From: Physcia stellaris
Taxonomy: Eukaryota; Ascomycota; Lecanoromycetes; Caliciales; Physciaceae
Length of the DNA stretch: 64,000 nucleotides
Direction of reading: 5' to 3'
Assembly (NCBI GenBank): GCA_018902385.1
Contig: JABSSW010000045.1
Coordinates: 248,001 to 312,000, forward strand
Shown: positions 14,437 to 56,556 of the stretch, in pieces
Layout of the letters: each line of letters opens with the position of its first letter
Numbering within the stretch: position 1 is the stretch's first letter
Notes under the pieces: generated by a model
What the model was told of the DNA's origin: nothing
The model's input: only the letters and a program-made list of their open reading frames with translations
Databases searched by the model: none
Program-made: the position numbers and the translations under genes

Positions 14437-14915
14437 GGAGCTACGAAATTTGAGATTGGTCCCGTGCTGTCAAACAGAAACAACGCAGGCTTGAGAAGAA
14501 ATACAAGATGACGTTGTAACACGGATCATCTCGAGTAGATGAGACTTGCCGTGTAGATAATTCAATTACTAGAAGAGATTTGGGGTGGGGAAGAATAATG
14601 GAGAGGGACATCATGAGGGTTGGCTAAGGTGACGCTTTGCGGGGTATGGAAACATTCGGCCCATCATCGGCAGATGGAATAAGGTAACGCAATCTTTCAC
14701 ACAGAATGATCAACAACAGTGTCTCGGAAGTTCCACCCAAGGGAGTTTGGTTGAACACTATCTCGAAAGACCAGAAAAAAAGGATCAACACAAAACATTC
14801 ATCTCCTGGCCACAGGTAAATCCCATAATGTAGAAAGGTTGGTCTCATCTCTCCAAGTGTCCAACAGCGGTCTCCTGTGTGCCCCGCTTTCACTGTCTTA
14901 ACGAAAAGCTTTACT
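14437..14915. other. Intergenic, ALDH6 upstream region
   Basis: This 479-bp spacer should contain the promoter of the dehydrogenase gene and the 3' flank of the DUF3602 gene. No further feature was recognised. Confidence 0.35.
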
Positions 14916-17064: not shown

Positions 17065-18010
17065 GCTTCAGATGCTGTCAGGTATTCAAGGCGCAACCGC
17101 CTTTCCGATGTCGAATGTGCTCTCATAAGAAGTTTTATGAACCGCGGCGCCTCTTCAGACATCTTACAGACCCTTTGACCAGTGTAGAAAGTCTGGGAGT
17201 TCCGATTGAACAGCAACCAAGAACGGCCGTTGCTGCTTCTCTCATGATCGTCTCTAGCTTAGGACGAGATCGAGCAAGTCTCCGCTAATAGTATTAGCGG
17301 AGGTACAATAGCTTCTGTTCAAGACACCAGATGAATCTCAAACGTATCTCCACTCCTACAACATGGTCAACACCCAAACAAAAGGGCTCGGACGCGGCTT
17401 TCCGAATGGCAAAAATGCAAAAGCATGCTCTCAAAGACGTAATTGAGATCGCTACGCCACTAGCTGATCATATATGGCTTGGTTATTCGGAAGCCAGGCA
17501 CTATCTGCCTGCCACCTCGATATCGCCGCCCATCTTTGGACTCGCACCTCCCAGTTTTTCAGCCATCTTGACCAACTTTAGATGCCTGGTAATGGCGATC
17601 GAACCTATATATCTTCATGCATTCTGAATGTCTCGGTTGCCTTTGATCAGGGTTTTCTCGCGATTGGCTTTGCTCATTGTACAGTAGCGCTAGAAACATG
17701 AATGTACAGGGTCTAAGTGACGCCGGGTCCCCAGCTGTACTCAAAGCTTCCAACATGATCAAAACCACACAATTGCAATTGCCATATCTGTCCATAAAGT
17801 TAACAAAATAAGGTATTGTTGTTCCGGATGCAGTCTAAAGGCAGACAAAACCCTAATCACGGGATCATGAGTATGGCATGTTCCGAACCACAACACCGAG
17901 CTCACAATTCATCCCGATCTCCCTATTCCGCTACATGCAATTGCTTCTCCACCAAATGAAAAAATCTTAGAAAACAAGTAAATCGACCGAAGCCTCGCAC
18001 ATTACAAACC
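17065..18010. other. Intergenic, no gene seen
   Basis: This 946-bp spacer lies between two plus-strand genes and should hold the promoter of the ChaC-like gene. A 98-codon plus frame at 17331-17627 and minus frames nearby show no family likeness. No repeat or RNA gene is recognised. Confidence 0.35.
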
Positions 18011-19091
18011 ATGACCCCATCACCCGCAAACGAGACCAATGAATTCTGGCTCTTCGGCTACGGTAGTCTGATCTGGAAGCCACCGCCTCACTACGGTCAG
18101 TCCCCATAGCCTCCACTTCGTCTCCAACCCCTTTTTCCTTTACTTCCACCGTAGAAACTCATCCACTCCAATTTTGCATCTCCCAAACCTCAGTCCCGTC
18201 AATCCCTAACCTCCCATCCCAAAGCCCAGATCTCCGCCTCCCAGGCTACATAACGGGCTACGTCCGCCGCTTCTGGCAAGCCAGGTTCGTCCTTCACCTC
18301 CATCAACCCCACCGTCCCATCCCACAAAAAGGCAGTCATGTAAGAAAAGGGAGGGAGAGGGAAAGCTCACACCCTCCAAAGCGAAGACCACCGCGGCACA
18401 CCCGCCTCCCCAGGCCGAGTCGTCACGCTAATCGAACAATCCTACTACGAGAAGCTTGTGAAGCCAGTATGCTCTTCTCTCCTTTTCCATTCATTGCACC
18501 CCCTCCCCAACCCCGCCTCCTCCAAAAAAAAAATTAGAAAATCTCACCGCGAAGGAACCCAACCACCCCCTCCCCGTCCACGGCGCCGCCTACCGCATCC
18601 CACCCCAACACGTCGCCGAAGTCTCCGCCTACCTCGACCTCCGCGAGATCAACGGGTACAGCATCCAATACACGGATTTCTACCCCTCGGTGCCGGCTTC
18701 TGGCCAAGAAGGAGAGGGAGGAGGCACGATCAGATGTCTAGTCTACATCGGGCTGCCCACGAACCCGCAGTTTCTGGGCGTGCAGCCGCCTGAGCGGGTG
18801 GCGGAGGTGATTCGGCGGAGTAGAGGGCCGAGCGGGGAGAATTCCGAGTATCTGTTTATGCTGGAGCGCGCGCTGGAGGGGTTCGGTGAGGGGGCAGGTG
18901 GGGATGAGCATGTTAGTGATTTGGCGAGGAGGGTTAGGGCGTTGGAAGCGAAGGGGATGCAGGGAGGTGGAGCAGCGAGTGAGGTTGCTGAAAGCAGGAT
19001 TGGGGATGAAGCCGTGAGTGCTGAGTTTGAGAGGGTACATAGCGGAGCAGATGGTAGTCACGGAGTGCAGGAAGAAACCGAGAAACCTTGA
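18011..19091 (+). CDS. ChaC-type gamma-glutamylcyclotransferase (glutathione-specific)
   Basis: Cytosolic enzyme expected to cleave glutathione to 5-oxoproline and Cys-Gly. Exons by hand: 18011-18095, 18230-18284, 18382-18466, 18555-19091, giving 253 residues with consistent phases. The N-terminus carries the substrate-loop signature FWLFGYGSLIWKPPPHY. DLRLPGYITGYVRRFWQAS, EDHRGTPASPGRVVTLI and GAAYRIPP follow, then YLDLREINGYS, whose Glu is in the position of a catalytic acid in ChaC proteins. RCLVYIGLPTNPQFLG and SGENSEYLFMLERALEGFG close the fold. A ~60-residue Glu/Ala/Gly-rich tail (from about residue 190) extends past the usual end. The acceptor of exon 4 is the least certain boundary; an alternative at about 18536 would need a different donor. 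Confidence 0.9.
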
Positions 19092-21771: not shown

Positions 21772-24214
21772 TTAGAAAGATGACCCTCGTCGCATAGCCT
21801 GTAGCTCTAATGCAATTCCGAAAAAGGAAGAAATTCTACCAAAGGACTTACAGATCGTGGTCGTTGCTATTGGTGTTGGTGTTCCAGTGACTGTGACGGT
21901 TGTAGCCGTCGGACATGTAGATGCGCCGCTGAACAAGGAGCGCAAGGAGATTGAGGACGAGGACCTAGAAGATGCGACGATGGCGATTAGCAAATAGGTT
22001 CCCAATGATAACATACTCAGGCCTGTGGAATACTTACGATGTGGAGGACCTGAGGATATTGATAAGGAGTGGTTAGCTAGCATTCTTCGCTCAAAGATCT
22101 GTCAGACAACCGAGTTCGATATCACTCACGAAGTGGAGCTGTAAAAGATGTATCAGTCTTTACTATTCTGAAGAAAGATAGGAAGAGCGCAAAAATACCT
22201 AGACGAAACCGGCGGGAAGTAGGTTGTCGTTGGCCGCACTGTGGCTGTGACTGTCGAGGTAAAGTAATCAGATTCCGTGGTGGCCTATCGAAAATCTCTA
22301 GTCAGCATTGCTTGCTCAGTTGACACGTGATTTCTTCCATGTCATCAGGCTCCCTTAAGCTGTTACAAGCCTACGATCTCAACAAATCCGTGTAAAAGAA
22401 TAGAGTTCAGATTGCTCTACCTGCGTGGTTGTGGCAGTGGTCACACTCGTGGCCGTCGTCGTGACTGTTGTTGTAAGCGTTTGCTGCGTCGTGTAGGTGG
22501 AGGTGATATAAACGTTAGAATAACTACGTAGCTGTCAGCATAACACGAGCCAGCACGCTTCACAAGCTTCTACAGCTAAGAGACTACCCACGCGTAAACT
22601 GTAGTCGCAGCGGTTTGAGTTGTGTACACGGAAGTTGTAGAGACTACTGTGGTAGTGGCGTAGACAGAGGTAACGGTCCCAGTATTTGTGGTACCTGCAT
22701 CGCCTTCCGGACCAGCTGCTCGAGGACCTGTGTTGCCGGTCGTACCAGCTCCTGTATTCGAGTTGCTGTTCGGACTAGCCGATGTATCAGTGTTGACGTT
22801 GTTGCCATTCGAACCAGCGCCTGTATCTGAGTTGCTGTTCGAACCAGCAGATGTACCTCCGCTGTTCGAACCAGCAAATGTATCTGTGTTGCCTGTGTTA
22901 CCGTCCGAACTAGCTGATGGACCTGCGCTGTTCGAACCAGTTCCTGTGCCTGTGCTACCTGTGTTGCCGTCCGAGCCAGCTGATGTACCTGTATTGTCGT
23001 TGGTGCCGGTCGAACTAGCTCCTGGATCTGAATTGCTGTTTGAATCCGCGCTTGTGCCAGCTTTGCGGCTCGAACTAGCTGCTGAATCCGGTACTATACC
23101 AATGAAGGTGCCGTTGGCATTGTATCCAGCGTTGGGCGGAGCCACATATGGGGATGTTGCGTCTGGGCCAGGAAGAGCTGGACTGTAACAGCCCTGTAAT
23201 TTATGGTTTGCGAATATTGAGACAGCGTTATCACCACCGCAAGTAGCGTATCCGCCTCTAAATTGACAATTAGCAAGTCCAAACAGTGCAGCCCTTGGCT
23301 GGAGGCGGGCTCTCATAGTCCGCCAACGAAGATCTGCCAGTGCAACTTACGCGGCTCCACCAGTTCCATTGCTATGATGAGTTTAACATGATCAGCATAT
23401 CTAGTCTCGAATGGCGGCAATGGAGGTATGATAAATGTAGGAAGGGTCTAGAGATGGCTCACCAGTAGTTGCCACACGAACTTTCATCTATTTGCGTCCC
23501 GGACTGAATTTCCGGGCTGCATCCGCAAGTATCGTCGTCTGTTGCTAGATCGGTTCCAGATCGATGCGAGAAAGGATATCCAATGAGACCGCAATGAGTT
23601 TGACAGGCAGAAGTACTTGTTGTTCTGAAAGTTTTGTATGACGGTCCAGGGGAAACGTATTCATAGCATCCTACGTAAGCATAGTTGCTGGCTGACTGGG
23701 TCGACGGTGTGATAGGCGAGAACGAAGGATCTTGGTATATAGAACTGGTACCTGCTCCGCCGCACGTTTGAGAACTGTTGCCTTGACACGGAGTGTTGCA
23801 CGCGCTTGCGTCCGTCTGGGTTCCTGGGGAGGAACCAGGAGGTGTTCCAGGACCATTCGCGGTATCGGTCGTTTCGGTTGGTAATGGGAAGTTTACACTG
23901 CAATAGCAATGTGCCCCATAAAGATTTGCATATTGATGTCCATGACCTCGACAAGCTCGGGTGCAGATATCTACAGACATTTGATCAGAGATGAAACCTG
24001 GGTAGTATTTCGGATCAGTCGTGCTGTTTTGGAGCTGCCAGGTGAATCCTGCATGTCGTCCGTTATCATTATCGTCATAACATCCCAGTGAAGTCCAAGG
24101 TTGAGCAGAACACGATGCCTGGCTACCACCAGCGCTGCCCTGAGCCGTCGCGATCGTCGCAAGGCCTAGAGCTGCAAGAGCGCCGAAGATGTGCATCTTC
24201 ATAAGCGGTCCCAA
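21772..24214 (-). CDS. Secreted two-WSC-domain, Ser/Thr/Gly/Asn-rich cell-wall protein
   Basis: Likely secreted or wall-associated carbohydrate-binding protein. Exons by hand: 24214-23463, 23371-23351, 23257-22588, 22531-22421, 22284-22199, 22138-22130, 22049-22038, 21964-21772, giving 617 residues with consistent phases. A signal peptide (MKMHIFGALAALGLATIATA) follows a 4-residue lead; ATG 24202 may be the true start. WSC domain 1 covers about 35-150 (WTSLGCYDDNDNGRHAGF, CRGHGHQYANLYGAHCYC, CQGNSSQTCGG). WSC domain 2 covers about 175-290 (YAYVGCYEYVSPGPSYKTF, ATDDDTCGCSPEIQ, GGYATCGGDNAVSIF). Next is a 160-residue linker of Ser/Asn/Thr/Gly repeats, then Thr-rich segments (TTTVTTTATSVTTATTTQ). 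I see no transmembrane helix, so it is probably not a Wsc1-type stress sensor. Exons 6 and 7 are microexons of 9 and 12 nt. The last exons and 3' end are the least certain. Confidence 0.8.
22690..23090 (-). repeat. In-frame coding minisatellite of the WSC protein linker
   Basis: Imperfect short units encode runs such as GSNSNSDTGAGSNGNN, GSDGNTGSTGTGTG and SSDGNTGNTDTF. The DNA repeats a Ser/Asn/Gly/Thr codon pattern whose complement shows recurring tokens like ttcgaaccag and ctgtgttgcc. Units vary in length (about 18-60 nt) but remain in frame. This is typical of length-polymorphic linkers in fungal wall proteins. Confidence 0.7.
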
Positions 24215-26276
24215 AGCCGAAGCGCGAGCTGAGATTATTTTGTACGATACTCAGAACTCAGAAACAAATGAAAGGTAATGACAGATAGTGGACTGATAGG
24301 ACGAACCGGCATTCAAGCGAGAGCGTGTTTCTGGACCAAGCAAATTTCCTCCAAAGGTACTATATAAAGTGCGTCACCAAGAGCTCGACTAAACGCGTGG
24401 ATGTGGACGTGATTTTTGGCGTTCATTCCAGTTCTGGTAGAAACTCATTCTTCGCAAAACTACGCTAAGGGTGCAAAACAACGAAATCCATTCCAGAAGA
24501 AATGAGTAACTTGCCCTTCGTCGTCTTGTAGACTCAGCACCTTTCGCAACTGCGACTGCATACGTTGAGAAAGTCTAAAACACGGTGGTGAATGTAGAGG
24601 AAATAATCCTTGAACTCCAAGAGACTATTTACCTTTACCGAGCATATGATCTATAGTCAAGCGTCTAGCATATATTGCTCAAATCATTCTTGCAAGTTAC
24701 TGATCGGTTAGCTAGGGTCATCCATCAATCAACGACTTTCATTTGAGCAGTCGGAGCAAATTTGGTAGCCCACAATGATCAAAAGATAGAAATAACGATT
24801 AAGATTAACCTACGGTAGCAGGTCAAGTGCTCTTGACGCTTCCTGGGGCCTTTAATTAGTACACCCATAGCTATTTACTTTTCCAACAGCGTAGGCGGTC
24901 TTCCCCCCTGAAAAATCGAGAGATGGGTGGTGATTTAGAAGACTTTAACCGATATCACTATTTCTCGACGAATGGTGCTGCCGACACTCCAAATAATTAC
25001 CCCTTCCAGCTGTTAGCTTTGAGATGAGCCAATGCAGCCTGAATCGTTCCGTAAAGCCCTTGAACATTAAGGTAACCCTTTTTGCATGAGCTAGAATCTC
25101 CGCATAGGGGTCCTCTCAAGCAAGTCCTACCAGACTGTTTTAGCTTAATAGAGATCATCAAGACGCCGGTAGTGATCTCTCATTTGTTCGACCACACTAT
25201 GGAGATTATTGAAGTCTCCACTAGTCCATAAGAATAGCAACAGAATCGCCACCAGCTTTGACCACAGCGGTATTCAAGTGTGAAGAGTAGAAAACTTAGA
25301 CCGAGGGTTTACTCTAGTACAAAACGCGATTGTCGCGTTCAAGCCCCAAAGTCTTTCCGTTCAATTTCACCATATTCTCCTCATCTCAAGTAATTTTTCA
25401 ATGAAGATCAGACATTGCTTGACGATCAATAGCCTACAGCTACCGTAAATTTGGGTTTGAACGCTATCAAACACTGTATTTGAGTCATGTTTGAGTGTTC
25501 CTATATGGAGAGGAGGGGAGGGTGTAGAAAGAAAGCTGAATGACCAGTAGGTGCTCCTAGTTGTCCACGCATGACACCCACGCGACTGTACGAGTCAAGC
25601 CTGAAACACGTACCTTGACAGCCGAGCTGTCTGTACAAACAGTGAAAGACCTACTCCTTAATATGTCGTGAAAACCTCTCAAATAAAGGTATGAGCAGCT
25701 GGTACTTGTGCCAATCAGTACGGGGTAGCGTCCTTGTCATTGACCATCAGTAGTCAATCGCAATCCTGTGTAAGTGAGAGGATCTACTATCCCTAACGTC
25801 TGAATCCTCGTTCATTATAGTCGGAAGTGCGTACGGGTGATGGAAAGACAAATGAAGATGGTTCAATGGCTGCGCACGGACCCTCGCATTCAACAATCTA
25901 AACGCGGAAATTATGTAAGCAGCACGTTGTTCTGACAGCACGAGGAAAACCGTCAAAATTACTCCCATGCCTCTTTCATGTCCCATTTACTCTTCATATC
26001 TTGACAAAATGAGAGTCTGAGACTCGGATCTCACGATGGATTGACATGGTCGCAGCGTCCGAGTTTGTCCAGGAGAAGCGATCTATCTCACGGGATGCTT
26101 TAGTGAAGAAGGTATGTACTTTTCGAACGTAAATCTACGTCGAATCAACAGTCAATTAGAGATTAACTATGCTAAAGAAAAATCTCGACAACATAAATTT
26201 TGATAGTGGGTATTTCCATACACCCAAACGCCCTCGCTCGCTAAGATTACTCCGACGTTGAAGACTGCGTTCTCTT
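24215..26276. other. 2.1-kb intergenic region, no gene seen
   Basis: This region holds the promoter of the WSC gene at its left and the 3' flank of the next gene at its right. The longest frame (79 codons, minus, 25747-25986) has no family likeness. Base composition is normal for the gene space, and CpT/CpC are common, so it lacks the island's mutation signature. No repeat is evident. Confidence 0.35.
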
Positions 26277-29405: not shown

Positions 29406-29418
29406 TCGTGGTCGTGAG
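29406..29418. repeat. Target-site duplication of the LINE, left copy
   Basis: The 13-mer TCGTGGTCGTGAG here is repeated exactly at 42630-42642 on the far side of the AT-rich island. Flanking bases differ, and AT-rich element sequence begins immediately inside. This fits target-primed insertion of a LINE. Confidence 0.9.
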
Positions 29419-30112
29419 GAAAACAAACACAATTTATGCTACAAACCGAATTTTTGAAATAACTCAACAACGAAACGTGATATTGATTTGATTGACGCGT
29501 CATTCGATTCGTCGAATTTTTACGCATCGATCAATGAACAATTGATGATGATGAAAAAAATTACATGATCGCAATTAAATCAAACGAACGAAAATGTTCA
29601 CAAACAAAAAACAATGTTGTTGAAAAACATCAAAAAATGTCGAAAATTCGTTCGAACAAAAAAAAAAATTATCATCAAAAATCATCGAAAACTGATTTAC
29701 AATCGTCGTGATATATTTTGAAAACACGCAATTTGCATTTATTCAAAAAATATGATGAATTTAACGCAATGAACAAAATAATTGTTCAATTCAACAAAAA
29801 ACACGCGAAAATGAAAAAAATAATGTCATGATTCGTCATGAAATTACAAAAATAATCATTTTTTCAATTTTTTTTTTTTTTTCACGATCAAAACGAATTC
29901 ACGCAATTGAACAATCGTCGTTGCGATTTTTCAACGTTCAAAATCATTGCGAACAAAAACATCGAAATCATAATACGTTTAAACGACAACGAAAAAAACA
30001 ACAATTGAATCAATACGAAATCAAACGTATCGTCAATGAAATCAACACGTGCATTACGAAAAAAAACATACAAATCAAAAATATTCGAACGATCAAAAAA
30101 TTCTCGAATGAT

Positions 30113-30117
30113 GATTT
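30113..30117. repeat. 5-bp target-site duplication GATTT (left copy)
   Basis: GATTT immediately precedes the 5' LTR and is repeated at 37462-37466 directly after the 3' LTR. Five bases is the usual duplication length for Ty3/Gypsy integrases. Confidence 0.85.
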
Positions 30118-30513
30118 TGTAATACGCTCGCGCTATCGAACAGTTAGTTCATGCGTTAATTCTGAATACGCGTTTGCGTAACGCAAATGCTTGACATTAA
30201 TAATGAATGTAACTCAAATGTAACATAATTATAAACGCACGTTTAATAAAGACGTCGTGAATTGATGCCATAATCGTGACGTTAATCAAAGCGTCATAAC
30301 TATTACGTCAAATACGAATATAAATAGATTGTTCACTTTTTTTTTTTTTCGTTGAGTTTCAACGATTAATTTTACATTTACAATATTCATACGATGCTGA
30401 TAATTAATAATTGAAATTTATTAAATTTCACGTTTTTCAATAATTCGATGCGTTATCGTAAAATTAATACATTATTGAAATTTGCTTTACGTCAACGCGT
30501 TTAAATTTTTACA
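30118..30513 (+). repeat. 5' LTR of the Gypsy element
   Basis: A 396-bp direct repeat pairing with 37071-37461, with TG...CA ends. It differs from its partner at about 24 positions, all transitions, plus a poly-T length change and a one-base indel. It retains more CpT/ApG dinucleotides than the element body. Confidence 0.9.
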
Positions 30514-33500
30514 ATTTTAATCGTTTCATTTTTCGAAAAAAAAAATTCGAAATTTATTAACATCATGACTGAATCAAATATCAACATTTCAAGCTTTAAA
30601 GTAAAAAATCTTGATGATGTTTCAAATATTTCAAATAATTTTATTTTTTCGAATTGAAACGACGTGAATCAAATTCAACAAAACATTTTTATTATCGACA
30701 ATGCGACGACGCAAAACATTTTGAAACAAATAACAATTGTTTTTCGAAAATTTAACGATGAAATCGCTCAATTGCGAATTCAAACTCGAGCAAATCAAGA
30801 CGCAACGCAATTCGTTATCGCATCGCAAACGCAATCAGTATCAATTGTATTTATCGTTCATTTCAAGAAACGAAAGTTCAAAAAACAATCTTTTTATAAA
30901 AACGAAAACGAAAATGAACATATTCGTTGATTTCGCGAAATCGAACTCGAATTTTTGACGTGTTTTAATTATTTTATGAATGATCGATCGAAAATTTTTT
31001 GATGCATGTCATCGTTGCGAAAAAATTTTCAATTTCAATGATTCAATCGTATCGACAACGATAAAAATTTGAAAAATATTTTTTACGATTATTACAAGTT
31101 TTTTTTTGAATTTGATAACAAATTCAGTGAATCGTCGATTCGTCGTTTATAAAAATTGAAAACGAATTCGTCAACGTGCGAATCAAAAAATGTTTAATTT
31201 CAAAAATGAATTCGAAAAATACGAAACTCATTTGTCGTTTTTTGATGAAATTCATTCGATCAATTTTTTTTTTGTAAATTATTGTCATTGTTGAAAAAAA
31301 AGTTGTTAAATATCGAAAAAATATCGATGAATAAAAAAAATTTGTTTGCGAAAATCGTTATGTTGAAAAAGATTTTTGAACGCGAACGACGAACAAATTC
31401 GCGTGTTCAAAATAATCAAAACATTTTCAAACAAAAAAAAAACAAAAACAAAAATAAAAAGCAATTTCAACAACAAAATCAACAACAAAATCAATTGCAA
31501 AATCGTTTCAATCAAAATATTTTTCACGATTTTGAACGCAATACGCATGCGAAAAACAAACGAAAACGCAATGAAAATGATCAAAATACAAAATCAACGT
31601 GTTATCGATGTCATCGCAAAAATCATTATGTTTTCGATTGTAAAATTGATGTAAATGAATCGAATAATCAACATATTATCGTTGTCGTCAACGTCACATT
31701 TGAATTAAAAAATCAAATTTCGCGAACGTCTCGCAAGCGAAACAAAAAAAATCAATAAAAATTCGAAATTTTATCGTGATTCAAAATTGAATCAAATTTT
31801 TGAAAAATGAGCGATTTGTTCGCGCGTTCGTAAATTTTGAAATCAAAATCAATTTTATCAATCAAGTTTTTGTCATTCAATGAGAAATGCAATCGATAAA
31901 CGAAATTATTTTATCGTTATCGAATTTTTGAATGAACAAAATCGCTATTGTTATGAAACGCATGAACTCATTTACAACATAATAAATTCGTGAAATCAAT
32001 ATCGTCAATGCAAAATTTTGTTTTATGCAATTGATTATATTGAATCGAATTTTATTTTGAATATGCTTTATGTTGATTGTCGAAAACATATTAATGAATT
32101 CGACGAAAAACAATTGACGTTTCAAAATCAAATTCAAGAAATTTCAGATTGATACGTTTAGACAATTTGTCAAGAATTTAAAAAATCACGGACAGATATT
32201 CGCGTTGATGTGTGCAGAAATCGAAAAACAATCGAAAAAGCAGAAATTTAAAATTACGAAAATGTCGAAACAATTAAAGAATTTAGAGAGTCAATTTGAC
32301 GACACGAAAGCAAATATTTTATTCGAATTAAATAGAAATGATCATGCTATTGATTTGAAAAAAAACGAAAAATCGTCGTTCATGTCGTTGTATAATTTAT
32401 CACAAAATGAATTAGCGAAATTTCGACGTTATATCGAAAATGTTTTGATCAAAAAATGAATTAAACATTCAATTTTTTTCGTTGACGCGTCGATATTTTT
32501 TGTATCGAAAAAAAATGAAAATTTTCGTTTTTGTGTGAATTATCGAAATTTGAATGCGATAATTATCAAAAATCGTCATTCATTATTTTTAATCACAAAA
32601 ATTTTGAATCGTTTTAATGATGTCAAAAAATTCATCAAAATCGATTTGAAAAATGTTTATCATCGAATTCGCATCAAACAAAACGACGAATGAAAAACGA
32701 CGTTTCGCACGCGATATGAACATTTTGAATATCAAATCATGTTTTTGAATTAGTCAATGTCTCAACAATTTTTCAAATTTATATCAATAAAATTTTGCGA
32801 AAATTTGTCGACGTCATTTGTGTGATTTATTTGAACGATATTTTGATATATAACAACGATTCAACGCAACATTGACGACATGTACGTTTTGTGTTCAAAC
32901 GATTGAAACAATACGAATTGTATGTCAATTTAAAGAAATGCGAATTTGTCATCGATCAAATCGAGTTTTTAAATTTCATTGTGTTCATTTGAGAATGTAC
33001 AAATGAATTCAGAAAAAAATTCGAATCATTGAAAAATGATCGCAATTTAAAAACTATCGCGAATTACAAATGTTTTTAAATTTCGTCAATTATTATCGTC
33101 GTTTTATTCATGATTATTCAAAGTTGATTGCATCATTTATTGATTTGTTGAAAAACAATAAACAAAGCAAAAAATTTGAATTTTTGTTTGAAAAAAAAAG
33201 TCGAAATTGACGTTTTGTCGATTGCGCAATATTTTTACATCGATTTTCATTTTTCATCATTATGATTCAGTCAGAAAAATCAAAATGAAAATCGATGTTT
33301 CGAGTTTCGAAATTTCAGATATTTTTAATCAATTTGATGAACAAAATCATTGACGTTCGATCGCGTTCTGATCGCGAAAAATGATATCGACAAAAATGAA
33401 TTACGAAATTCATGATCAGAAATTACTAATTATAATTATGATTTTTCAACAATGACGATATTATTTCGAAAACGTTACGCACGCGATAGAGATGTGATTT

Positions 33501-36068
33501 GATCACAATAATCTAAAAAAATTTATGAAACAAAAAAAGTTTAACTCAAAACAAATCAAATGAATTTTTAAATTAATTGTTTATGATTTCGAAATTTTTT
33601 ATCGTGCAAACAAAATCAATTCGACAAATGAATTATCGAAACGTTCAAATTACGAAAAAACGTCGTTATTCAATATCAAATTTTTGTTCACGTTGCAAAA
33701 TAAATTTGCGTTATCGTCAAAAAAACGAATCGATTTTGAAAATCAAAATTTTGTTTCGAATATCGCAACAAATATTCAATTATTCAAAAACAATGCGCGT
33801 GCGAAAAACAAACGCGAAATGTTAAAAAATTTAAATTCATTGTTTCAATTGATTGATGTACAAATTGTCATTTTCAAAAAAAAAATACGAAATTTATTTG
33901 AAAAATTCTATGAAAAATCGCAAAAATCGATGAAATTTTTGATTAAAAAATTTCAAATTATCGACAAAACGATTAAGAAATTTGTCGAAAAAAACAAAAA
34001 ATCATTTCGTCGTCGACGCAACAAATTTTATTGAAAAATGAATTTCGAAAATTTTTTTAAATTCAAAAATCGTTTTTATGTATTTGAAAATGCAACAATA
34101 AAAAAAAAATTCATAAGCAAAAATCACGATGATTCATTGACAAAACATTTTGATGTTGATAAAATTGTGAATTTGATTCAACGAAAATTTTATTGATTCG
34201 TTTGCGCGAAACAAATTCGTTCATATGTCAAAATTTGCGACATATGTCAACGTATCAAAATTCATCGACATAAATTTTATGAAAAGTTCAAATTTTTATC
34301 TGTTTCGAATATTTTTGAAAAAAATCATCATGAATTTTATCATCGATTTGCTTTTTAACAAGCGTCGCGATGTCGTTTATGATTCGATTTTAATGATAAT
34401 AAATCGACGATCAAAATAATCAAATACATTTCGATTACGATCAAAATCGATGTCGTTGCGCTGACGAAAATTTTCTATGAAAAAATTGTTTTACGATTTG
34501 ACGTTTCGAATGATATAATGAATGACAGAAATTTTGTTTTCACGAATGTTTTTGATTTTCGATGTGTTATCACGCACGCATTAAACGACGATTAAACATT
34601 GTTTTTCATTTTCAAACGAATGATTTAATCGAACGTCAAAATTAAATTTTTGAAACGTATTTGCGTACATTCGTCGACGCGAAACAAACGAAATGAACAA
34701 ATATGTTTTCAATGATTGAATTTGTCTATAATAATGTTATTTATTTTTTTACAAATGTTTCGTTTTTTTATTTAATGTATGATTATCATTCAGAAATTCA
34801 CTATGTGATCGAAAACGATTTCAAAGAAAAAAAAATATTCATTGCAAAAAATAGAATAAAGCATTTGCATGAAATAAAAAAAACGTTGATAAAACGATTT
34901 GAATTCGCTGTCGCAACGCAAACGAAATATTACAATCAAAATCATGAATCAAAAAAATTCAATGTGAATGATTTAATAATGTTTAATATCAAAAATTTTA
35001 AACAACGACGTTTTAACAAAAAAATGTCGCACAAATTTGTTGAATTTTTTCGTGTAAAAAATAAAATCGATGCGCAAACGTATCGTTTTATTTTATTCAA
35101 TATTTATCGCATTCATAATATTTTTCATGTTTCGTTATTGAAAAAATATTATCATAAAATAAACGATAAACATACGAAACAATTTATGCAAATTTCAAAA
35201 TTTATTGATGACGAAAAACAATGAAAAATTGAAAAAATTCTGAATAAAATGAATGACAAAAAGAATATTTGATACAAAAATCAAATGACTTGATTGAAAT
35301 TCGAAATATAATCAATGATTACATGAAAATGAATTCAAAAATGTTTTAAATTTGATGAAAAATACAATGAACGTGCGTCGCGCAAGCGCAAACGACGTCA
35401 TTAATTCAAAATTATTTATTTTGTTTCAATGTCAACAATGATTTGATTTTTTCGTTCTATCGCTTAAAACGATAAAGACGATGAAATCGTTTAACATCAA
35501 CATATAATCACGAACAAAAAAATAAATAAACGTCAAACGTCAAACAAAGAAAATCTATGAACAGAAAAAAATCGTTTATTTATCGCATATTCATTTTGAA
35601 TCGAAATCAAAATCATTCGAAACGAACGAATCGAAATTCAACGAATTCGAAAAATTCGAAATGTTCGAAAAATTCGTTTCATCGAAATTCATTTCGTTGA
35701 TCGAAATCGCAAAAAAAATTTTTCGAAATTTTCGATTTTTGAATCATCATTTTTTGAACGAAAATTTTGTATTCAATCAATGCAAAAATGAAAATAAAAA
35801 ATGTTTCGTTTGTTTATCGTCAATTGCGCATTTTTTTTTTCATCAAAAAAATTCATCAATTTTTCATTTTTTTTTTTTCAATTTTTTCATTTTTTTCGTC
35901 AATTTCATTTTTTTCGTTTTTTTTTTTTTCAATTTCATTCAACAAATCAATGATTTGTTTTTTCGTTTTCGTCAATCGTTCGTCAAATTGATTCGTCAAA
36001 ATCGTGACACGATTGATCGTTGATTGTGCGCGATTTGCGATAATCGAAATGTATTCATGATTGCGACG

Positions 36069-36344
36069 TCATTGTTTCAAATCAACAATCGCATTTTTTT
36101 TTCGTTTTTCGATGCGAACGAAAATGAATTGATCGCGACGTTCGATTTTTGCGAATTCGCGCACGATTTTTTTCATTTGTTTTCGAAATCGTTTTGAAAA
36201 TTGTGATTTGTTAACGTCGTCGCATCGCTTGCGCAAACAAATACATATCGAATGACAGAAATTTGAATCGTGATGTTGAAAGCGACATTTTTCGCAAATT
36301 TTCAAAGCATCGCGAACGCACGCATGACGATCAAAACACGTCAT
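36069..36344 (-). other. Antisense cysteine-rich frame in the 3' region of the Gypsy element
   Basis: On the minus strand, between integrase and the 3' LTR, a 91-codon frame has a protein-like composition: CFDRHACVRDALKICEKC, then CRFQHHDSNFCHSICICL and a basic helical stretch. The Cys/His spacing suggests a zinc-binding module. I do not recognise the family. It could be a chance antisense frame, since this strand's codon set is shaped by the same mutation bias. Confidence 0.3.
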
Positions 36345-37070
36345 ACATGCGAGATTTTCGCAAATTATAAAAAATTAACTTGTTGTTGTTGTTTGCGCTC
36401 GTGACGCGCGCGCTTCATGATATTTACGTCGATTTTTTTGAAAATCGATCATGATTTGAAAGTAAATAAATTGTCGTATTGATGACTATATACATAAACA
36501 AACGTTGCGCAAACGTTGAAAAATATTTTACGCGAAAAAAGTTGTGATAAAAAAAATATGAAAAAAAAAAAAATGCGAACAGAAAGTTTGTTAATAAACA
36601 ACATCGTGAAATTATCGACACGTTGTTTTCGCAATCGGCGAAACTTCATGTTTATTAACAAAAAAATTCGCGTCGACGTTTCGATGAAATTGAATTTAAA
36701 TTTCGTCATTCAAATCTTGATGTTGACATTTCGATTTTCGATTTTGAAACATTGTCATTCAAAATTTGCATTGAAAACATGCTTTACGATTGCGCAATTA
36801 CATTGAAAACTCTTTTCTTTTGAACAAAAATTTGAAAAATTTTTAACGAGTTTTTGAACAAACGATACATGAACGCAATGTGATATCGCACATGATATTT
36901 TTTGAAAATTTTTTTTTTTTTCGTTTGCTTTCGAAATTTTGAGAGTTTTTGTTACGAATTTCAATAGAATTTTTGAAACTTTACAGTCAAGACATTTACA
37001 TGTTGTTTCTATTTATTGCATTGATATTGTTTCTATGCATTGAAAATCAGCGCATTGAAAAAAAAACAAC

Positions 37071-37461
37071 TGTAATACGTTCGCGTTATCGAACAATTAA
37101 TTCATGCGTTAATTTTGAATACGCGTTTGCGTAACGCAAATGCTTGACATTAATAATGAATGTAATTCAAATGTAACATAATTATAAACGCACGTCTAAT
37201 AGAAACGTCATGAATTAATGTTATAATCATGACGTTAATCAAAGTTGTCATAATTATTACGTCAAATACGAATATAGATAGATTGTTCACTTTTTTTCGT
37301 TGAGTTTCAACGATTAATTTTATATTTACAATATTCATACGATGCTGATAATTAGTAATTGAAATCTATTAAGTTTCACGTCTTTCAATAATTCGACGCG
37401 CTATCGTAAAATTAATACATTATTGAAATTTGCTTTACGTCAACGCGTTTAAATTTTTACA
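37071..37461 (+). repeat. 3' LTR of the Gypsy element
   Basis: A 391-bp direct repeat of the 5' LTR at about 94% identity. It is preceded by an A-rich polypurine-like tract (gaaaaaaaaacaac) and followed by GATTT. Confidence 0.9.
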
Positions 37462-40400
37462 GATTTCGCGATACACGCGATAAACGCAAAAAAAAAAAAA
37501 CAAAAAAAGTGCGAAACAACAATGCATGAACGACGATATTCGACAAAAAAACGAAAACGATCGTTTCGATTTACGCGATCATGATCAACGAAATAAAAAT
37601 CAAAAAATTCGATTTAACAACGACAAAAATAAAAAAACGACGATGCGTAAAATAAAAAAAAAAACGAAAACGTGAAAAAATTAAAACAAATGAAAATTTT
37701 GTACGTGTTTTGAAAAAACAAATTCACGACAATGCAACAATATCATTTTTTGATTATTGAAATCACTATTTCAAAATGAATAACAATATGTTGAACAACA
37801 GATCATGATCGAAAAGAAATTGAAAATTTGTTCAATATTCAACAAAACATGCAAAATTATTCAATATTATAAATATCATCATCACGAACACAATACAATT
37901 CAATGCAAAAAAAAAACGATGCGATTATTGCGCAAACGCGCATGTTACAAAAAAAAAATGTGCAAAAATTACAAAATCAAATGTTGTGTATATGAAAAAC
38001 ACATAATTCATGAAAAAAATGCAAAAAAAAACAAAAAAATCGAAAAAATCATGTATCAACGCTCGATTACGTCAACGAAATTCGAAATTCAAAAACAACA
38101 ATACATCGTCGTCAACAAAATGATAACGATTTCGAAATCGATGAATACAATTCACGAAAATTCAAAAACGACAATCGCTGCGAAAAAATTCAATCAATTA
38201 AAAAATTACAACGACGAAATATCGAAAAATCACAAAAAAAAATTTATTTAAACGAAATCAACAAACGCAAAAAAACAAACGCGTATGAATTTCACGTGAA
38301 AATGATTTTGTCGATCGAAACAATGATATTATCGCAATTATTTTTAAATTCACAAAAATTTCGAAACAAAAAAAATGATAAATCGACGTCATCGATCAAA
38401 AATAAAAAAACATCAATGATTAAAAAAAAATATGAAAAAAAAAAAAAAAAAAAAATTTTTCGTTCACGATCATCAAAACATTTTTAATTGACGTCACAAA
38501 TCGAAATACGAAATTCAAAACAGTGAAAAAATGTTAAAAAACGACACATTATCGATATTACAATACAACGTCAACAATTCGAAAATTCAAATCATGATAT
38601 CGTTGTTCGAAACAAAAAGCAAAAAAATTCGATATATTGATCATGCAAAAATCATGAAAAAATTCATTTCAATTCACGACAAACAACAAATTTTCGCAAC
38701 AATTCGAATTATTGTACATATTCGATGCAATTACGAAAATGTGCATGTTCATCAACAAAAAAATAACGAAAATCGAATATTTTTACACGTTTCACAACAA
38801 AAATTTAATTTCGTTAAAAATGCAAATCGCGAACGACAAAATTATCAATATTCACAACATGTATAATTTATGCAAAAACAACGAAAATTTCAACGCGATA
38901 TTCAATTTTAAAAACGCGATACAAAAAAATCAACGAAAAACACGTCATTGTAAAAAATTTTAATTTGCATCATTTCAATTGAAAAAAATCACATGTGAAA
39001 ATAAACGCGAACGCATACGAATTCATAATTACGATAAAAAAATATAAATTAAAAAAAATCATATCGATCGAATTAATTACATGAAATAAACACACGAACG
39101 AAAACACAATCGATTTCACATACGCAATATCGTTGTTTCGAAACAACATGATCGAAATTGATATCGACGAAAATATGAACAATCATTCGAATCATCGTTC
39201 AATCAAAACGATATTGAATTTGCGTACAAAAACGATCACGTCGAAAATTACAAAAATTTGAACGAAAACGAACATCGATATATTACGCGAAAAATTGCAA
39301 ACAAAAATAACGAATAACGAAACGTTCATTTTTATTAACGATACGTACAACAATCAAACAAAAAAAATCGACGATCAAATCAAAAAATTGATAAAAATCA
39401 TTCAAACAATTATCGAAACAATCATTTCGATCAACAAATCGAACGTTTACGCGAAATCAAAATTCATCGAAAAATGTAAACAAACATCGAAAACGATCAA
39501 ATCGATCAAAAAAAAATATCAAAACAACGACAAAATCGAAATTCTGTGAAAATCGTACAAAAAAATGAAAAATCGTTTGAATCACGTAGTTTTTAAAATC
39601 ATGAAAACACAATACAAAAAAAAAATCGAAAAAAGATGTGATACATCAAACAACATGTGAAAAACATGCAAATGAACAAAAAATCGAATTTCAAAAAAAA
39701 TTTGTTTGTCGATTTTACACGATCATTCATTTATGTTATTCGAAATTGACTCAATCAAAAAACATTCATATTGTTAAAAAAAAATTTTTTTCGTCGTTTA
39801 CGATTGTTTTAATCGATATACAGAAAATCACATACAATCAAAATCTGAAATTGAAAAACATACAATTTCATTGAAATGACGAAAATCATAATCAAACAAA
39901 ATTCGAACAAAATTTCAAACGACGACGACATAATCAATAAAATATGAAAATGAATAAATAACATTATCGCATTACATTTGCAACGTATATACAACGTCAA
40001 TTTGAACGAAAATTATTGTTCGAAACATTTTCGAAAATCGATCACGATCGCATTACGCAAATCAAACAAAAATATTTATTCAATGACGATTTCGTACAAA
40101 TCAATAATTTTATTCAATATTATAAGCAAATTCATGAAATTCATATTAATCAAACGAATCAATTTTTGACGAAAAATACGATTTGCTGTCACGCAGCACA
40201 TTTCGAAATCAGAAAAATCGTGTTTACAAAACACGCATTACATTACATGATGAAACGTATACATTCGACATGAAACAAAAATTGATAATCGTAATCATGT
40301 TATTCGACGTGATAAACGTTTTCGACAATATAACGCGTTTAAAATTGTTACACAATCTCAAAATGAAACGTTTAAACGAAAAACTGATACGATATATTGA

Positions 40401-42610
40401 TTTTTTTTTGTTCAATAAAATGACGATATTGAAAACGAACGAATACGATATCGAATGACTCGAAATATTCATAGAAATTTCACAAAATTCATTTATGTTA
40501 TCGATTTTTTTTTTTTTTACAACGCATTTCTATTGAAAATTTTGAAAAAAAAAATATTTCAACGAACGAATTCGTCGACGATGTAAAAATGTTGACGAAA
40601 AATCACATTTTCGAAAAATGCAACGATATCATAATCAAAACACACGAAAAAGTTTGCGTATCGTGAACATTGAAACATGAAATGAAATTTGCATTTTTCA
40701 AATATCAATTCATTTATTTCAATCGAAGAAAAAAAACAAACGTCACAAAATCGATATTATTTTTTGAATTCAATCAAAAAATCAAAACAAACAAAAAAAT
40801 GAAATATTTGAACGTCATAATGAACGAAAAACTCAATTGAAAAACACAAATTAATCAAAACAAAACGAAAACATTGAAATCAATAAAAACATTACGCAAT
40901 CTTGACGACATTACATGAAATGTTAAATTTTCGAAAATGAAACAAATGATGCAAACGATTTTCGTTTCACAATTCATATACGCATGTTCGATATGATACA
41001 CGTCAACGAAAAAAAAAATCACAACAAAAAAATAGCGAAAAAATTAACGAACGTTCAATATCAAATCGAAAAAATTATAACGAAAACATACAAAACGATT
41101 TCGAAAAAAACGTTCAACATCGAAATCAATTCAATGTTCATGCATTTACGTTTGAACAAATTCATCAATGCGTTCGCAATGAAATTGATAACGAATTCGA
41201 CATACGACACGATTATACGCGATCGTTTCATCAAAAAATCGAAAAACGTCAATTCATTGAAAAAATTAATGAATAAATTCGAAAAAAAAACGAACATCAA
41301 AACACACGATATGAAAAAAATTTTATTTTTTGTCGCATCGTCATGATGAACATCGTCAATTGCACGTATCATGAAAAACAAAAAAAAATCGAAAAATATC
41401 ACAAAATACAATTAGCAACGAATTCGATCAATTACATATACACAAATGAAAACGACATTAACGACAAAATGAATGCAACAACGATATTTTCAAAAACGAA
41501 ATTTATTACAACGAAAACGTATTTGAAATTCATTACGTCATACACGATTTATTTTGCTGAATTATATAACATCGTTTTAACAATGAATATGCGATTGCAT
41601 TCGTTTTTGAAATTTGCAAAAAAATCGAAATTCGTCATATGCATCGACAATCAAACAACAATTCAAACGATGCACAATTCAAAAATCAATTTCGATCAAT
41701 ATTTGATGAAATGAATAATTTGATTGATCGACGAATTGCAAAACAAATATATTGAAATGAAATTGCGTTGAATTTCGATTCACATCGATATCGAAAACAA
41801 CGAACAAACAAACGTTGCGATCAAACAAATCACGAAATGAAAATTGAAAAAAAAAATAAAAAAATGAAAAAAAATGAACATCGATCACAAAAAACACAAC
41901 AAACGAACGTGCAAATGCTGAAAAACGTCGTCAAAATCGTGATGAATAAATCGATAAAACAACAATGAAATCAAAAATGAAAAAATTGCAATAAAAAAAA
42001 AAATCTGTACAAAATTACATCGAAATTCAATAAAACAATATTGCGATTACACGAAAAATTCACAAAAAAACTCAACGTCATAACAATACAATTTCGCATG
42101 ATCAAAATAAATTTACAAACGTTTTTATACAATAAAAAACAAATCGAAAATTTCATGTGTTTATGCATGTGTAACAAACAAACGATCAAATACGTGTTTT
42201 CGAATGCAAAAAATTGAAAAAAATTTCGCAAAAATTTATGAATTGACGAAATTAAAAAAACGAAATGAAAAAAAATAAAATTGATGAACGTATTGATCAA
42301 TTCGATCAATTTGACAAAAACGACAAAATTTATCGAAAATTCGAGTTAAATTTGATTATTTACGAATTTGATTACGAACGACGAAAAATAAAAATTGCAA
42401 AAAAAATGCATTGAATTGAAAATTTTCGTACAAAATGAAAATGAAAAAAAATCATGAAAATAAAAATGTTTGAAATGATTTGTTCGAATCGAAAAATTAA
42501 ACATCAAAAACAAATTAATTGATATAAAGTCAAAAATTTTTTAAAAAATGATTGATTCGATTGTTTTTAGTCGCATAACGAATTCTTAAAATCGATTTCG
42601 AGTGCTTAAT

Positions 42611-42630
42611 GAATCAATCAATCAATCAAT
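42611..42630. repeat. (AATC)n 3' tail of the LINE
   Basis: About four to five tandem AATC units end exactly at the right target-site duplication. A simple-repeat tail in place of poly(A) occurs in Tad1/I-type LINEs. Confidence 0.75.
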
Positions 42631-42642
42631 CGTGGTCGTGAG
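42630..42642. repeat. Target-site duplication of the LINE, right copy
   Basis: TCGTGGTCGTGAG, identical to 29406-29418. Normal-GC gene space resumes immediately to its right. Confidence 0.9.
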
Positions 42643-42865
42643 ACTCGTGACTGAACGATGGCTTGATCATTGATGCATTGTACATTGTAGTAGCTGGTTC
42701 CATCCCAATCTATCCGGTAGAATTGCTATAGCAGCAGTAGTATGCCTCCGAGCATTCTTGAGCCTCACCGGCTCAACCCTTGCATCAAACTTCCATCCTG
42801 GCCAAGAATGCGTACGGCTTCATGCCCATGGCTGGCATCAAGAACTATTATTGTGATATTTCTAG

Positions 42866-44486
42866 ATGGGCTATTACATTAGAAGTTTGAGTATCGGCGG
42901 TAAGCCTTGGGGCAGAATATTTGCTTTCATCTTCTCTTTTGTCGCAATCCTTTTCATCACTCATTATATATATCCCGGCGGATCTGTGAACCACTATGGA
43001 TTTTCTCCCGCTCAATCGCTCCAATCTACTTTCTCGAGAGTTCGTCCTGTCAAGTTCTCAACATATCGTTATGAGGCCCCTCAAGACCTCGTAATACCTC
43101 AGTGGCAAGGTAGAGAAGTCCAAGCCGAGTCCTTGATTGGCAAAGTGACCATACTCTTCCATGGCAAAGATCCTACTTACATCCGAGCAATCCAAACACA
43201 TCAAGCACACAACAGGCTCCACGGATACCCGCTGTTGGCTCTCCGTCATGCTATCCTTGATGGCATCTGGAGCAAACCCGCTTACATCCTTGCAGTGTTG
43301 CTGGAAGAGCTCAGGAAACCCGACGGACAAAGATTGAGATGGCTTTTGTGCGCCCTGTGGATTAAGCTTACGATAACTGAGGCTGACATTCTCTAGTTGG
43401 GTTGACGCAGATACCGTTGTGACTAATCCAAAAATACCACTGGAGATCTTTCTACCTCCTGAACAATTTCCTCACCTCCATCTTCTTGTAACCGCAGATC
43501 CTCATGGACTTAACAATGGCGTCTTCTTCATAGCAATACATCCGTGGTCCGTTGAGCTGCTCTCTGCTATAATTGCATATCCAACTTTCCGACCTGAAGT
43601 ACATCTTGAGTTCCGCGATCAATCCGCTCTGGAAGAGATACTCAAAGAAAAGCCCTTCAAGAAGAATTTTGCGATCTTACCGCAGAGATGGATAAATGCT
43701 TATCAAGCTGAGCGCGATGGCTCTCGGACCCTCCCGTTTCAAGTAGTCCCGGGCGACCTTCTCGTTCATCTTCCAGGCGTTCCGCAACGAGACGAATGGA
43801 TGCGACACTATCTTGGCATAGCAGAACGGCATTGGCCGAAATGGGAGGTGGATCTGGATGCAACTAACTATTCTACAGAGATAAGAGACTACTGGATCGA
43901 GCAACAGGCTACACTGGCAAAAGAGAGGACTCAAGCTCAAAGACTGGCAGGCGAGGCCAGGGAGTTTTTCGTCATGTTCAAGAAGGACTTTGAGGAATAC
44001 CGGAAACGATTAGATACTGGTACAATCGAACAAGCCGAACGGTATATGAAAGAGATGAATGATGCTTTGGAAGATAGTCGTGACGATCTCGAAATCGTAG
44101 CCCAAGCACTTGAAAACTTGAAGAAGGTATGTCGAAACCCTCTTGACTGATTCCGCAATTTAATCTAAGAATACGGATAGTTCGCGCTATCAATCCGTAA
44201 ATTGGTCGATGAATCGAAGAAAGCATTGCGTGACGAAGCATTTAGTGCCATATCGCAAAGCGAGGAGTTATTGTCTGAAGGAGCTCAAAATTTCAACTTC
44301 GCTGAAGAAGAAAAGAGCAAGCTGGTATCGCACAAGGAAGCTCTTCAGCGTCTACTCGCCGGAGTCGCAGACGACCAGAATGCAATCCGTCAAGCAATCG
44401 ACAGCTTGACAAAAATAGCATCCGAAGCCAAAGCCAAAGCCGACGAGAAGCCGGTGACGAAAAGTGAAAAGAATTCCTCAAGCTAG
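42866..44486 (+). CDS. GT34 (MNN10/GMA12-type) glycosyltransferase with long coiled-coil C-terminus
   Basis: Type II Golgi membrane glycosyltransferase likely adding mannose or galactose to N-glycan outer chains. Exons: 42866-43347, 43397-44126, 44181-44486, giving 505 residues with consistent phases. A membrane anchor lies at about 19-37 (FAFIFSFVAILFITHYI). The catalytic domain shows KVTILFHGKDPTYIRAIQTH, NRLHGYPLLALRHAI and the DxD metal site in RWLFWVDADTVVTNP (D164, D166). HGLNNGVFFIAIHPWSVELL, ILPQRWINAYQ and GDLLVHLPG follow, all family hallmarks. From about residue 320 the protein is almost wholly charged helix (LAGEAREFFVMFKKDFEEYR through AKAKADEKPVTKSEKN), predicted coiled coil of about 180 residues that ordinary family members lack. 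Its start is only 223 bp from the right end of the LINE insertion. Confidence 0.9.
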
Positions 44487-51814: not shown

Positions 51815-52975
51815 TTATTGATCTTCAGACGCTGCTGCTCCAGTGATGATCTCCACCAATTCTCCAGTGATGACAGCTTGACGGGTTCGATTGAAAAGAA
51901 TCTGAAACTTGTTGATCATATCTCCGGCATTCTTCGAGGCATTCTATCAAAACAATTAGATACCGTCTGAAACAGTAGCTTTCAAAGATGAACATCACTT
52001 ACGTCCATGGCATTCCGGCGCGCTGATTGTTCGCATGCATGGCCTTCTGCGAGCGCCTGCTCAAGTAATTAGCAAACGTTGGGCTTCAAGGGGAATCAAT
52101 TTTCCATCTTACCCAGTAAAGTGAATTGGCCAAAGCATATTCCCGGAGATTTGCGAGCACCGAATCATCGATTTCGAAAGCGGCAAAGTTGGCTGTGACC
52201 CGCTTGTTAGCTTTTCGGCGCGGCAAAATATGGATTACACAACTCACGAGAGTTAGCGATAGCCTCTTCAGAAAATGCCTCGATTGGGGTAGCTTCGTAA
52301 CTTTGAGCATTTATGAATTTGTTGTATAAAATCTGTACATCGGCGTAGTCCGTCGGAAGCAATGAGACCTGGTCAGCTATAGCCTGAGCGTCTGCAAAAG
52401 TCGGCACGTCTTTTCCGACACCGGCGAAGCTCATGACCACATTCTTGCCGTTGGATCGGCCTAGCTGGGCTTTTGATTTTTCGCCAATCACCACGATATC
52501 GGCATCTGGCTGTTTCTCCAACATCCTTCGTGTGGCTTTCGATAGCCCGGAGTGGATTCCTCCGCAGAGGCCTTTGTCAGAGCTGCAAACAATAAACAGG
52601 GTTTTCTTGCCCTCTCCTTCAACGGCCTTTGTTTCGGCTTGCTCGAACACGGTATTCGAAGTCTGTCCGTAGTTTCGAGACTCGGTCATGGCTCTCTGAG
52701 CCCTTGTGAGCTTGGTGGAGGCTACAATCTTCATCGTTTTTGTGATTTTTTCGATGTTGCGAATGGACTTGAGACGCCCTTCAATCTCGCGAAGCGTAGC
52801 ATAATTGGCGGCATTGGAGACAAGAGGCCTGCGCATCTATGTTTAGCAGTCGAAAAGCAGCAATATAGACCACTCGTGAACAGTGCTGCGTAAGAACGTA
52901 GATTTGTGAAGAGGCCTACCGTGCTGAAGCCGCCGCACCAGCGTTTAAGGCAGGGCGAACAGCCCTTGAGAGCAT
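51815..52975 (-). CDS. ATP3: ATP synthase F1 subunit gamma, mitochondrial
   Basis: Central rotor stalk subunit of the mitochondrial F1Fo ATP synthase. Exons: 52975-52920, 52828-52248, 52192-52113, 52056-52003, 51943-51815, giving 299 residues with consistent phases. A short basic presequence ([20 protein letters not shown]) is divided by intron 1. The N-terminal helix reads [20 protein letters not shown] and [18 protein letters not shown]. The Rossmann-like part includes [19 protein letters not shown] and [14 protein letters not shown]. The C-terminal helix shows [38 protein letters not shown] and [20 protein letters not shown], the conserved family end. It is divergently arranged with TOP1 across a 456-bp gap. 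Confidence 0.96.
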
Positions 52976-56400: not shown

Positions 56401-56556
56401 GTTGCTGACTGTGTATTGCAGAACTATATCGATCCCCGTCTTACGGTCGTCTTCTCTAAAAAATTCAATGTGCCTATTGAGAAATTCTTCTCCAAGACTT
56501 TGCGGGAGAAGTTCAACTGGGCTATCAAATCAGTAGATGAAGACTGGGAGTTCTAA
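53432..56556 (+). CDS. TOP1: DNA topoisomerase I (type IB)
   Basis: Nuclear enzyme that relaxes supercoils through a 3'-phosphotyrosyl nick. Exons: 53432-53495, 53658-53893, 53949-55235, 55287-55625, 55679-56368, 56422-56556, giving 916 residues with consistent phases. Residues 1-330 form a Lys/Glu/Ser-rich nuclear-localising tail ([22 protein letters not shown]). The core starts [20 protein letters not shown]. It contains [50 protein letters not shown] (active-site Arg), [13 protein letters not shown] and NHKRTV. A coiled-coil linker (about 740-850) precedes the C-terminal domain, where the catalytic Tyr lies in the block [14 protein letters not shown] (Tyr near residue 874), split by the last intron right before NY. 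The C-terminus [16 protein letters not shown] is typical of fungi. Confidence 0.97.

Follow-up and report, generated by a model that had tools for sequence, protein, structure and literature searches.

What process removed almost every cytosine before a pyrimidine from a 13,211-base island of transposon DNA in Physcia stellaris, while sparing those before purines? We analysed 64,000 nucleotides of contig JABSSW010000045.1 (assembly GCA_018902385.1, positions 248,001 to 312,000 of the forward strand), hereafter the window. The island within it is an outer element resembling a long interspersed nuclear element (LINE), split by a Ty3/Gypsy retrotransposon with long terminal repeats (LTRs). A preliminary description of this DNA had proposed a hypermutation like repeat-induced point mutation (RIP) that acts before T or C. 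Coordinates count from the first letter of the window and are collected in Table 1; CpY and CpR denote cytosine before a pyrimidine and before a purine.

Dinucleotide make-up and edges of the island

Across the whole island 2 CpC, 2 GpG, 88 CpT and 110 ApG are left, so that the two strands are hit about equally, and there are 967 CpA, 709 TpG and 819 CpG. For positions 29480-42600 (13,121 bp) the counts are CpC 1, GpG 2, CpT 85, ApG 109, CpA 957, TpG 704 and CpG 816, with odds ratios of 0.00, 0.01, 0.15, 0.16, 1.21, 1.40 and 3.53, respectively. The corresponding values in gene space (1-29000) are CpC 0.97, CpT 1.05, CpA 1.09 and CpG 0.88, and those of 43000-64000 are similar. The full count thus bears out what the preliminary description had proposed from five sampled lines: CpT and CpC lie far below their gene-space levels, with no depletion of CpA. 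Recounting those lines gave CpA 26 and CpG 20 (27 and 21 had been reported) and the same values as before for CpT (1), CpC (0), ApG (1), GpG (0), TpA (16) and ApT (44); five-line samples of gene space (2000 draws) had CpY shares of 0.27-0.72. The statement that C survives only before purines is right for CpC (2 left) and too strong for CpT and ApG, of which about a tenth of the expected number remains (198).

When the bases of the island were shuffled 1000 times, the observed counts of CC, CT, AG and GG lay far outside anything reached (z = -18.6, -26.3, -31.8 and -16.6), and CG stood at z = +44.7. In 500-bp intervals, CpY makes up 0.000-0.143 of cytosines on both strands in the island (n = 26) and 0.422-0.629 in gene space (n = 100), with no overlap. 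GC content in 1-kb steps is 43-58 per cent in gene space and about 27 per cent from 29.5 to 42.6 kb. As a share of all dinucleotides on both strands, CA (6.3 per cent) and CG (6.2 per cent) in the island are close to gene space (6.9 and 5.2 per cent), which argues that CpA and CpG were spared rather than replenished. The ratio (CpC+GpG)/(TpC+GpA) is 0.002 in the island vs 0.79 in gene space, and (CpT+ApG)/(TpT+ApA) is 0.041 vs 1.00.

Classical RIP indices score this island as negative, as had been predicted: TpA/ApT is 0.41, where RIP-positive DNA gives at least 0.89, and (CpA+TpG)/(ApC+GpT) is 1.39, where it gives at most 1.03. The mark of CpG methylation decay or methylation induced premeiotically (MIP), CpG depletion with raised TpG and CpA, is absent, with CpG at an odds ratio of 3.53.

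The hypermutation is confined to the two elements, to a precision of about 60 bases at either end. Across the left target-site copy, consecutive 60-base bins have CpY shares of 0.57, 0.18 and 0.00. At the right edge the share goes from 0.17 to 0.25 (42631-42690) to 0.62. The left flank keeps its normal make-up until the element begins, and the right flank is normal from about 42690. The 13-bp direct repeat at these edges exceeds all flank matches in 1000 shuffles (maximum 12, mean 7.3).

Direction and context of the changes

The two LTRs of the Gypsy element give a direct test of direction and context, since both copies were presumably identical at landing. This comparison is independent of base composition. 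In a 397-column alignment, taking the context from the C-bearing copy, we found 24 substitutions and 7 indel columns. Every substitution is a transition (C/T or A/G, in both orientations) and none is a transversion. Sixteen of the differences are at CpT, 1 at CpC, 3 at CpA and 4 at CpG. Of the sites that one or both copies still show, 17/24 CpY differ vs 7/99 CpR (odds 31.9, P = 2.5e-10), and this small CpR component is hidden in the whole-island counts. CpT/ApG sites are about twice as dense in the LTRs as in the Gypsy interior. At seven CpY sites, both LTRs still carry the cytosine.

We then modelled the process forward, applying context rules with hand-set rates to gene DNA from the window, which only approximates the unmutated elements, and comparing the resulting dinucleotide profile with that of the island. 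A rule acting on CpC and CpT gave a divergence of 0.0046. The other nine settings gave 0.094-1.36: CpT alone 0.094, CpC alone 0.20, all contexts 0.27, all non-CpG contexts 0.33, no change 0.38, CpA and CpT 0.61, CpG 0.74, CpA 0.79, and CpA and CpG 1.36. A free fit of four cumulative rates, by the base 3' of the cytosine, returned 0.042 for A, 5.2 for C, 0.0003 for G and 2.35 for T. These rates correspond to change at about 4 per cent of CpA, 99 per cent of CpC, 0 per cent of CpG and 90 per cent of CpT sites. Two of the four starting points agreed closely (0.0026-0.0027), a third came near (0.0059) and the last was trapped at a poor fit (0.196). The base on the 5' side matters little: relative to gene-space frequency, residual CpT is 0.175 after A, 0.103 after G and 0.155 after T, a spread of less than two-fold, as expected of a methyltransferase that reads the 3' base.

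More targets survive in the inner element than in its host, with CpY:CpR counts of 157:1817 in the Gypsy element vs 37:1466 in the LINE (P = 5e-13). The LINE is older than its insert and has fewer CpY left, which fits repeated rounds of mutation. Together the counts, the LTR pair and the model fits uphold the proposal of C-to-T change before pyrimidines, on both strands of both transposons, to near completion and with CpA and CpG spared. For this locus the context rule is established.

The two elements and their surroundings

The inner element is a Ty3/Gypsy LTR retrotransposon, with LTRs that begin and end TG..CA, a short target-site duplication and the usual order of reverse transcriptase, RNase H and integrase. 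Reading TGA as tryptophan, Pfam recognised RVT_1 (3.7e-14, and again at 3.7e-6, the latter below the cut-off), RT_RNaseH (5e-19), Integrase_H2C2 (3.9e-12) and SH3_Tf2-1 (5.2e-10), and a search of solved structures matched the Ty3 Gag-Pol structure 7q5b (E = 8.2e-9). The domains start in different frames (31986, 32618, 33162 and 34646). Within the segment 33162-34358, the frame that encodes the domain is interrupted by 9 TGA and, up to its end, by no TAA or TAG; each of the other five frames holds 9-13 TAA or TAG. In the domain frame, 18 CAA/CAG and 21 CGN codons are left. TGG, CCN and most GGN codons are missing because of the dinucleotide counts, and so are not separate evidence. The same segment had no relatives in collections of viral contigs, phages and plasmids; fungal genomes are few or missing in these, so the absence says little. 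No Pfam match above the cut-off was obtained for the reverse-strand frames at 35576-36374.

The 13-bp duplication and the (AATC)6 tail, in an element lacking LTRs, form the layout of a LINE insertion, one that fits LINEs in general. The domains expected of a Tad1-type LINE are endonuclease, reverse transcriptase and RNase H. By eye only, frames at about 40475-41035 and 41277-41957 look like reverse transcriptase and RNase H of this type, which Pfam did not confirm. None of ten outer-element frames passed the Pfam cut-off (six were searched again at a loose limit; RNaseH_like, at E = 0.0085, fell below the cut-off), and a search of solved structures gave no useful relative. One fold model of the outer element was poor and uninformative (mean predicted local distance difference test score, pLDDT, of 52). 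Aligning the island to itself with blastn gave many long matches of 57-60 per cent identity; we rejected these as repeats, since they are an effect of composition.

The flanks carry genes (Table 1), among them a topoisomerase I gene with a possible short intron; this intron and the gene content suggest a filamentous ascomycete. The topoisomerase I segment had no relatives in collections of genome contigs and viral contigs with few or no fungal genomes, and an Rfam scan of the window gave no match. Gene space includes local strand-skewed stretches, C-rich at 18001-19000 (CC 125 per kb) and G-rich at 60001-61000 (GG 133 per kb).

Table 1. Positions of the island, its elements and flanking Pfam matches in the window
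Feature	Position	Strand	Basis and remarks
Hypermutated island	29419-42629	none	CpC/CpT (GpG/ApG) nearly gone, CpA/CpG/TpG retained; GC about 27 per cent; dinucleotide counts, shuffles, edge bins
Left target-site copy, 13 bp, TCGTGGTCGTGAG	29406-29418	none	Free of hypermutation; longest exact repeat common to both flanks
Outer LINE-like element, 5' part	29419-30117	+	Between left target-site copy and 5' LTR; 698 bp with CpT 4, ApG 0, CpC 1
GATTT target-site duplication, 5 bp	30113-30117 (left), 37462-37466 (right)	none	Flank sequence
5' LTR	30118-30513	+	LTR alignment; ends TG...CA
Gypsy pol remnants, at least two reading frames	31986-35311	+	Reverse transcriptase, RNase H, integrase zinc domain, Tf2-type SH3 domain
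Reverse-strand open frames between pol and 3' LTR	35576-36374	-	Open with TGA read as tryptophan; cysteine-rich start
3' LTR	37071-37461	+	LTR alignment
Outer LINE-like element, 3' part	37462-42629	+	Frames read with TGA as tryptophan
(AATC)6 tail	42608-42631	+	Tandem repeat search; adjoins right target-site copy
Right target-site copy, 13 bp	42630-42642	none	Flank-to-flank exact repeat
Calreticulin	6289-7152	+	Pfam
Aldehyde dehydrogenase	13639-14469	-	Pfam
ChaC	18462-19091	+	Pfam
WSC	23459-24250	-	Pfam
GMA12/MNN10	43377-44150	+	Pfam
ATP synthase, gamma-type	52207-52836	-	Pfam
Topoisomerase I	53949-56536	+	Pfam
Epimerase	58020-58982	+	Pfam
STAS	61342-61983		Pfam, below cut-off
Sulfate permease	61938-63655	-	Pfam

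Known systems, mechanism and meaning

Classical CpA RIP, as in Neurospora crassa and Leptosphaeria maculans, resembles what we see here in being an extensive C:G to T:A change on both strands that is confined to transposons and breaks reading frames. It differs in its target, since the island keeps CpA and CpG and loses CpC and CpT (CpA odds ratio 1.21; fitted rate 0.042 for CpA vs 5.2 for CpC). Calling the process the reverse of CpA RIP is fair for the neighbour preference, though the label is no evidence for a separate mechanism. The CpG-type hypermutation of Microbotryum (TpCpG) and the decay of CpG by MIP or methylation are likewise context-dependent C-to-T changes in transposons, and there too the context differs, CpG being the best-kept in the island (odds ratio 3.5).

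One survey, which covered 1,239 fungal genomes, concludes that a preference for CpA is common to RIP-like defences (PMC12543289). A CpT signature is reported in Magnaporthe oryzae, Botrytis cinerea and Sclerotinia sclerotiorum, each of which has a CpA signature besides (PMC4352252), and CpT signatures are also described in S. nodorum and in Tad1 copies of N. crassa (PMC2621366). In Colletotrichum truncatum, LTR families have TpA/ApT of 1.59-1.68, and the (CpA+TpG) index of CpT-biased families is as low as 0.08-0.12 (PMC6180176); in Anisogramma anomala CpT is found alongside CpA, with a mean TpA/ApT of 1.14 (PMC10998396). In one comparative study, CpT to TpT is stated to have dominated the changes in alignments from control fungi capable of RIP (PMC7882544); we suspect that CpA was already exhausted in such copies. 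DIM-2 is itself described as CpT-preferring (PMC13297926). CpT-biased RIP is therefore already known, in nearly all of the cases compared here with CpA loss, and the earlier suggestion of an undescribed system is not established. These systems share with the island a main transposon change of CpT to TpT; they differ in that CpA is lost alongside and CpC is not named as a main target, where the island keeps CpA.

Two further fungi come close in other respects. Repeats of Monacrosporium haptotylum are also reported to show no decrease in CpA (PMC3828140), but their TpA is high, the products of CpA change are visible and TpA/ApT is 1.12, vs 0.41 here. Cladonia rangiformis has gene space near 48 per cent GC, very AT-rich transposons with sharp edges and later nested insertions that are less mutated (PMC12542154), all as in the window; its dinucleotide rule is not given in the main text, where 'dinucleotide' and 'CpA' are absent. 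Among the papers listed by searches of the open-licence literature, we recognised none that describes a loss of both CpC and CpT from DNA that retains CpA and CpG; the main ascomycete survey, Clutterbuck 2011, may contain a similar case.

Our favoured explanation, which we hold to be probable though well short of certain, is that a LINE-like element inserted here, later received a Ty3/Gypsy insert, and that both were C-to-T hypermutated by a repeat-directed, RIP-like defence, most likely through a RID/Masc1-type or DIM-2-type C5-cytosine methyltransferase. The process would recognise both elements as repeats, and its catalyst would read a pyrimidine 3' of the target, taking CpC best, CpT next and CpA or CpG hardly at all. 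The 3'-neighbour pocket of the methyltransferase would accept C or T instead of A, and repeated rounds on recognised repeats would continue until nearly all CpY was lost. Action on both strands, confinement to transposons, sharp edges and near-saturation are the behaviour of RIP, which suggests a variant of it. The decisive base is 3' and the 5' base has little effect, which argues for a C5-methyltransferase rather than a deaminase of the AID/APOBEC kind. We infer repeat recognition, methyltransferase chemistry and timing in the sexual cycle, and consider the catalyst most likely to resemble RID or DIM-2, with a 3' pocket that takes pyrimidines. There is a slim chance that the catalyst is instead a separate one with its own 3'-pyrimidine rule (CpC > CpT >> CpA, CpG) and not a shifted RID or DIM-2; such an enzyme may be widespread and unseen, as surveys score TpA and CpA.

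Several observations sit less easily with a RIP-like defence. The 202 surviving sites are not clustered by strand (P = 0.53), so they lend no support to strand-wise processivity. The evidence comes from a single locus, and a search for element copies elsewhere in the window, with both collapsed in silico, gave only 8 matches of 24-72 bases, which we took as simple sequence. CpR changes between the LTRs (7/24) outnumber transversions (0), so the context rule is not absolute, and the frame shifts between Gypsy domains and the 7 LTR indel columns indicate that not all decay is C-to-T, with indels or errors contributing too. The CpT residue is about 38 per kb in the LTRs vs 18.8 in the Gypsy interior, a difference for which the model has no explanation. 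In the bin that adjoins the insertion on the right (42631-42690), the CpY share is lowish (0.25), and slight leakage is possible. Separately, the patch at 32100-32400 holds 15 surviving ApG/GpG vs 1 CpT/CpC, with strand labels unclustered island-wide.

The same chemistry and context would arise if CpC and CpT had been methylated, by MIP or in heterochromatin, and the 5-methylcytosine had then been lost slowly to spontaneous deamination; the CpT preference reported for DIM-2 (PMC13297926) would suit this too. However, CpC is nearly gone and CpT about nine-tenths gone without one transversion between the LTRs, so spontaneous deamination would have to have been very many times faster than all transversions. 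Some transversions could be masked by gene conversion between the LTRs, so this argument is strong and not final, and we regard slow decay as unlikely. Less likely again is a DNA cytosine deaminase, whether AID/APOBEC-like or of another type, directed at repeats or at reverse-transcription intermediates. It would account for near-complete C-to-T hypermutation at a locus where the catalyst is only inferred; yet the strands are hit about equally (CpT 88, ApG 110), unlike the editing of a single cDNA strand, and the same rule holds in the LINE and in its Gypsy insert. AID/APOBEC enzymes have a strong 5'-neighbour preference and usually act on one strand per event. The context here is 3', and the 5' base alters residual CpT less than two-fold.

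Two separate activities, one on CpC and one on CpT, could also have acted on the same repeats, given that the fitted rates are about two-fold apart (5.2 for C, 2.35 for T) and that 16/17 LTR differences at CpY are CpT. We think this improbable to a similar degree: an excess of CpT is expected if CpC was exhausted first, both losses span the full length of both elements, and one 3'-pyrimidine rule is simpler. That no hypermutation took place, and that the elements had a naturally odd composition or the sequence is a sequencing or assembly artefact, is very improbable. There is one locus, which would allow it, but its edges are sharp at the target-site duplication, LTR differences are concentrated at CpY, the Gypsy domains are recognisable with TGA as tryptophan, and a single context rule reproduces the island from gene DNA.

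Under a RIP-like defence of this kind, the rule turns TGG into TGA and spares CAA, CAG and CGA, so that genes are broken by a different route from that of classical RIP. If the rule holds genome-wide, P. stellaris would have a natural enzyme that reads the base 3' of the cytosine with a more than hundred-fold preference (as fitted) for C over A, the opposite of classical RIP, and comparison with CpA-type relatives would reveal the residues that set the choice. RIP indices and pipelines based on CpA and TpA would then call the genome RIP-negative despite its destroyed transposons, and because they miss such genomes, surveys of fungi with this defence would be biased.

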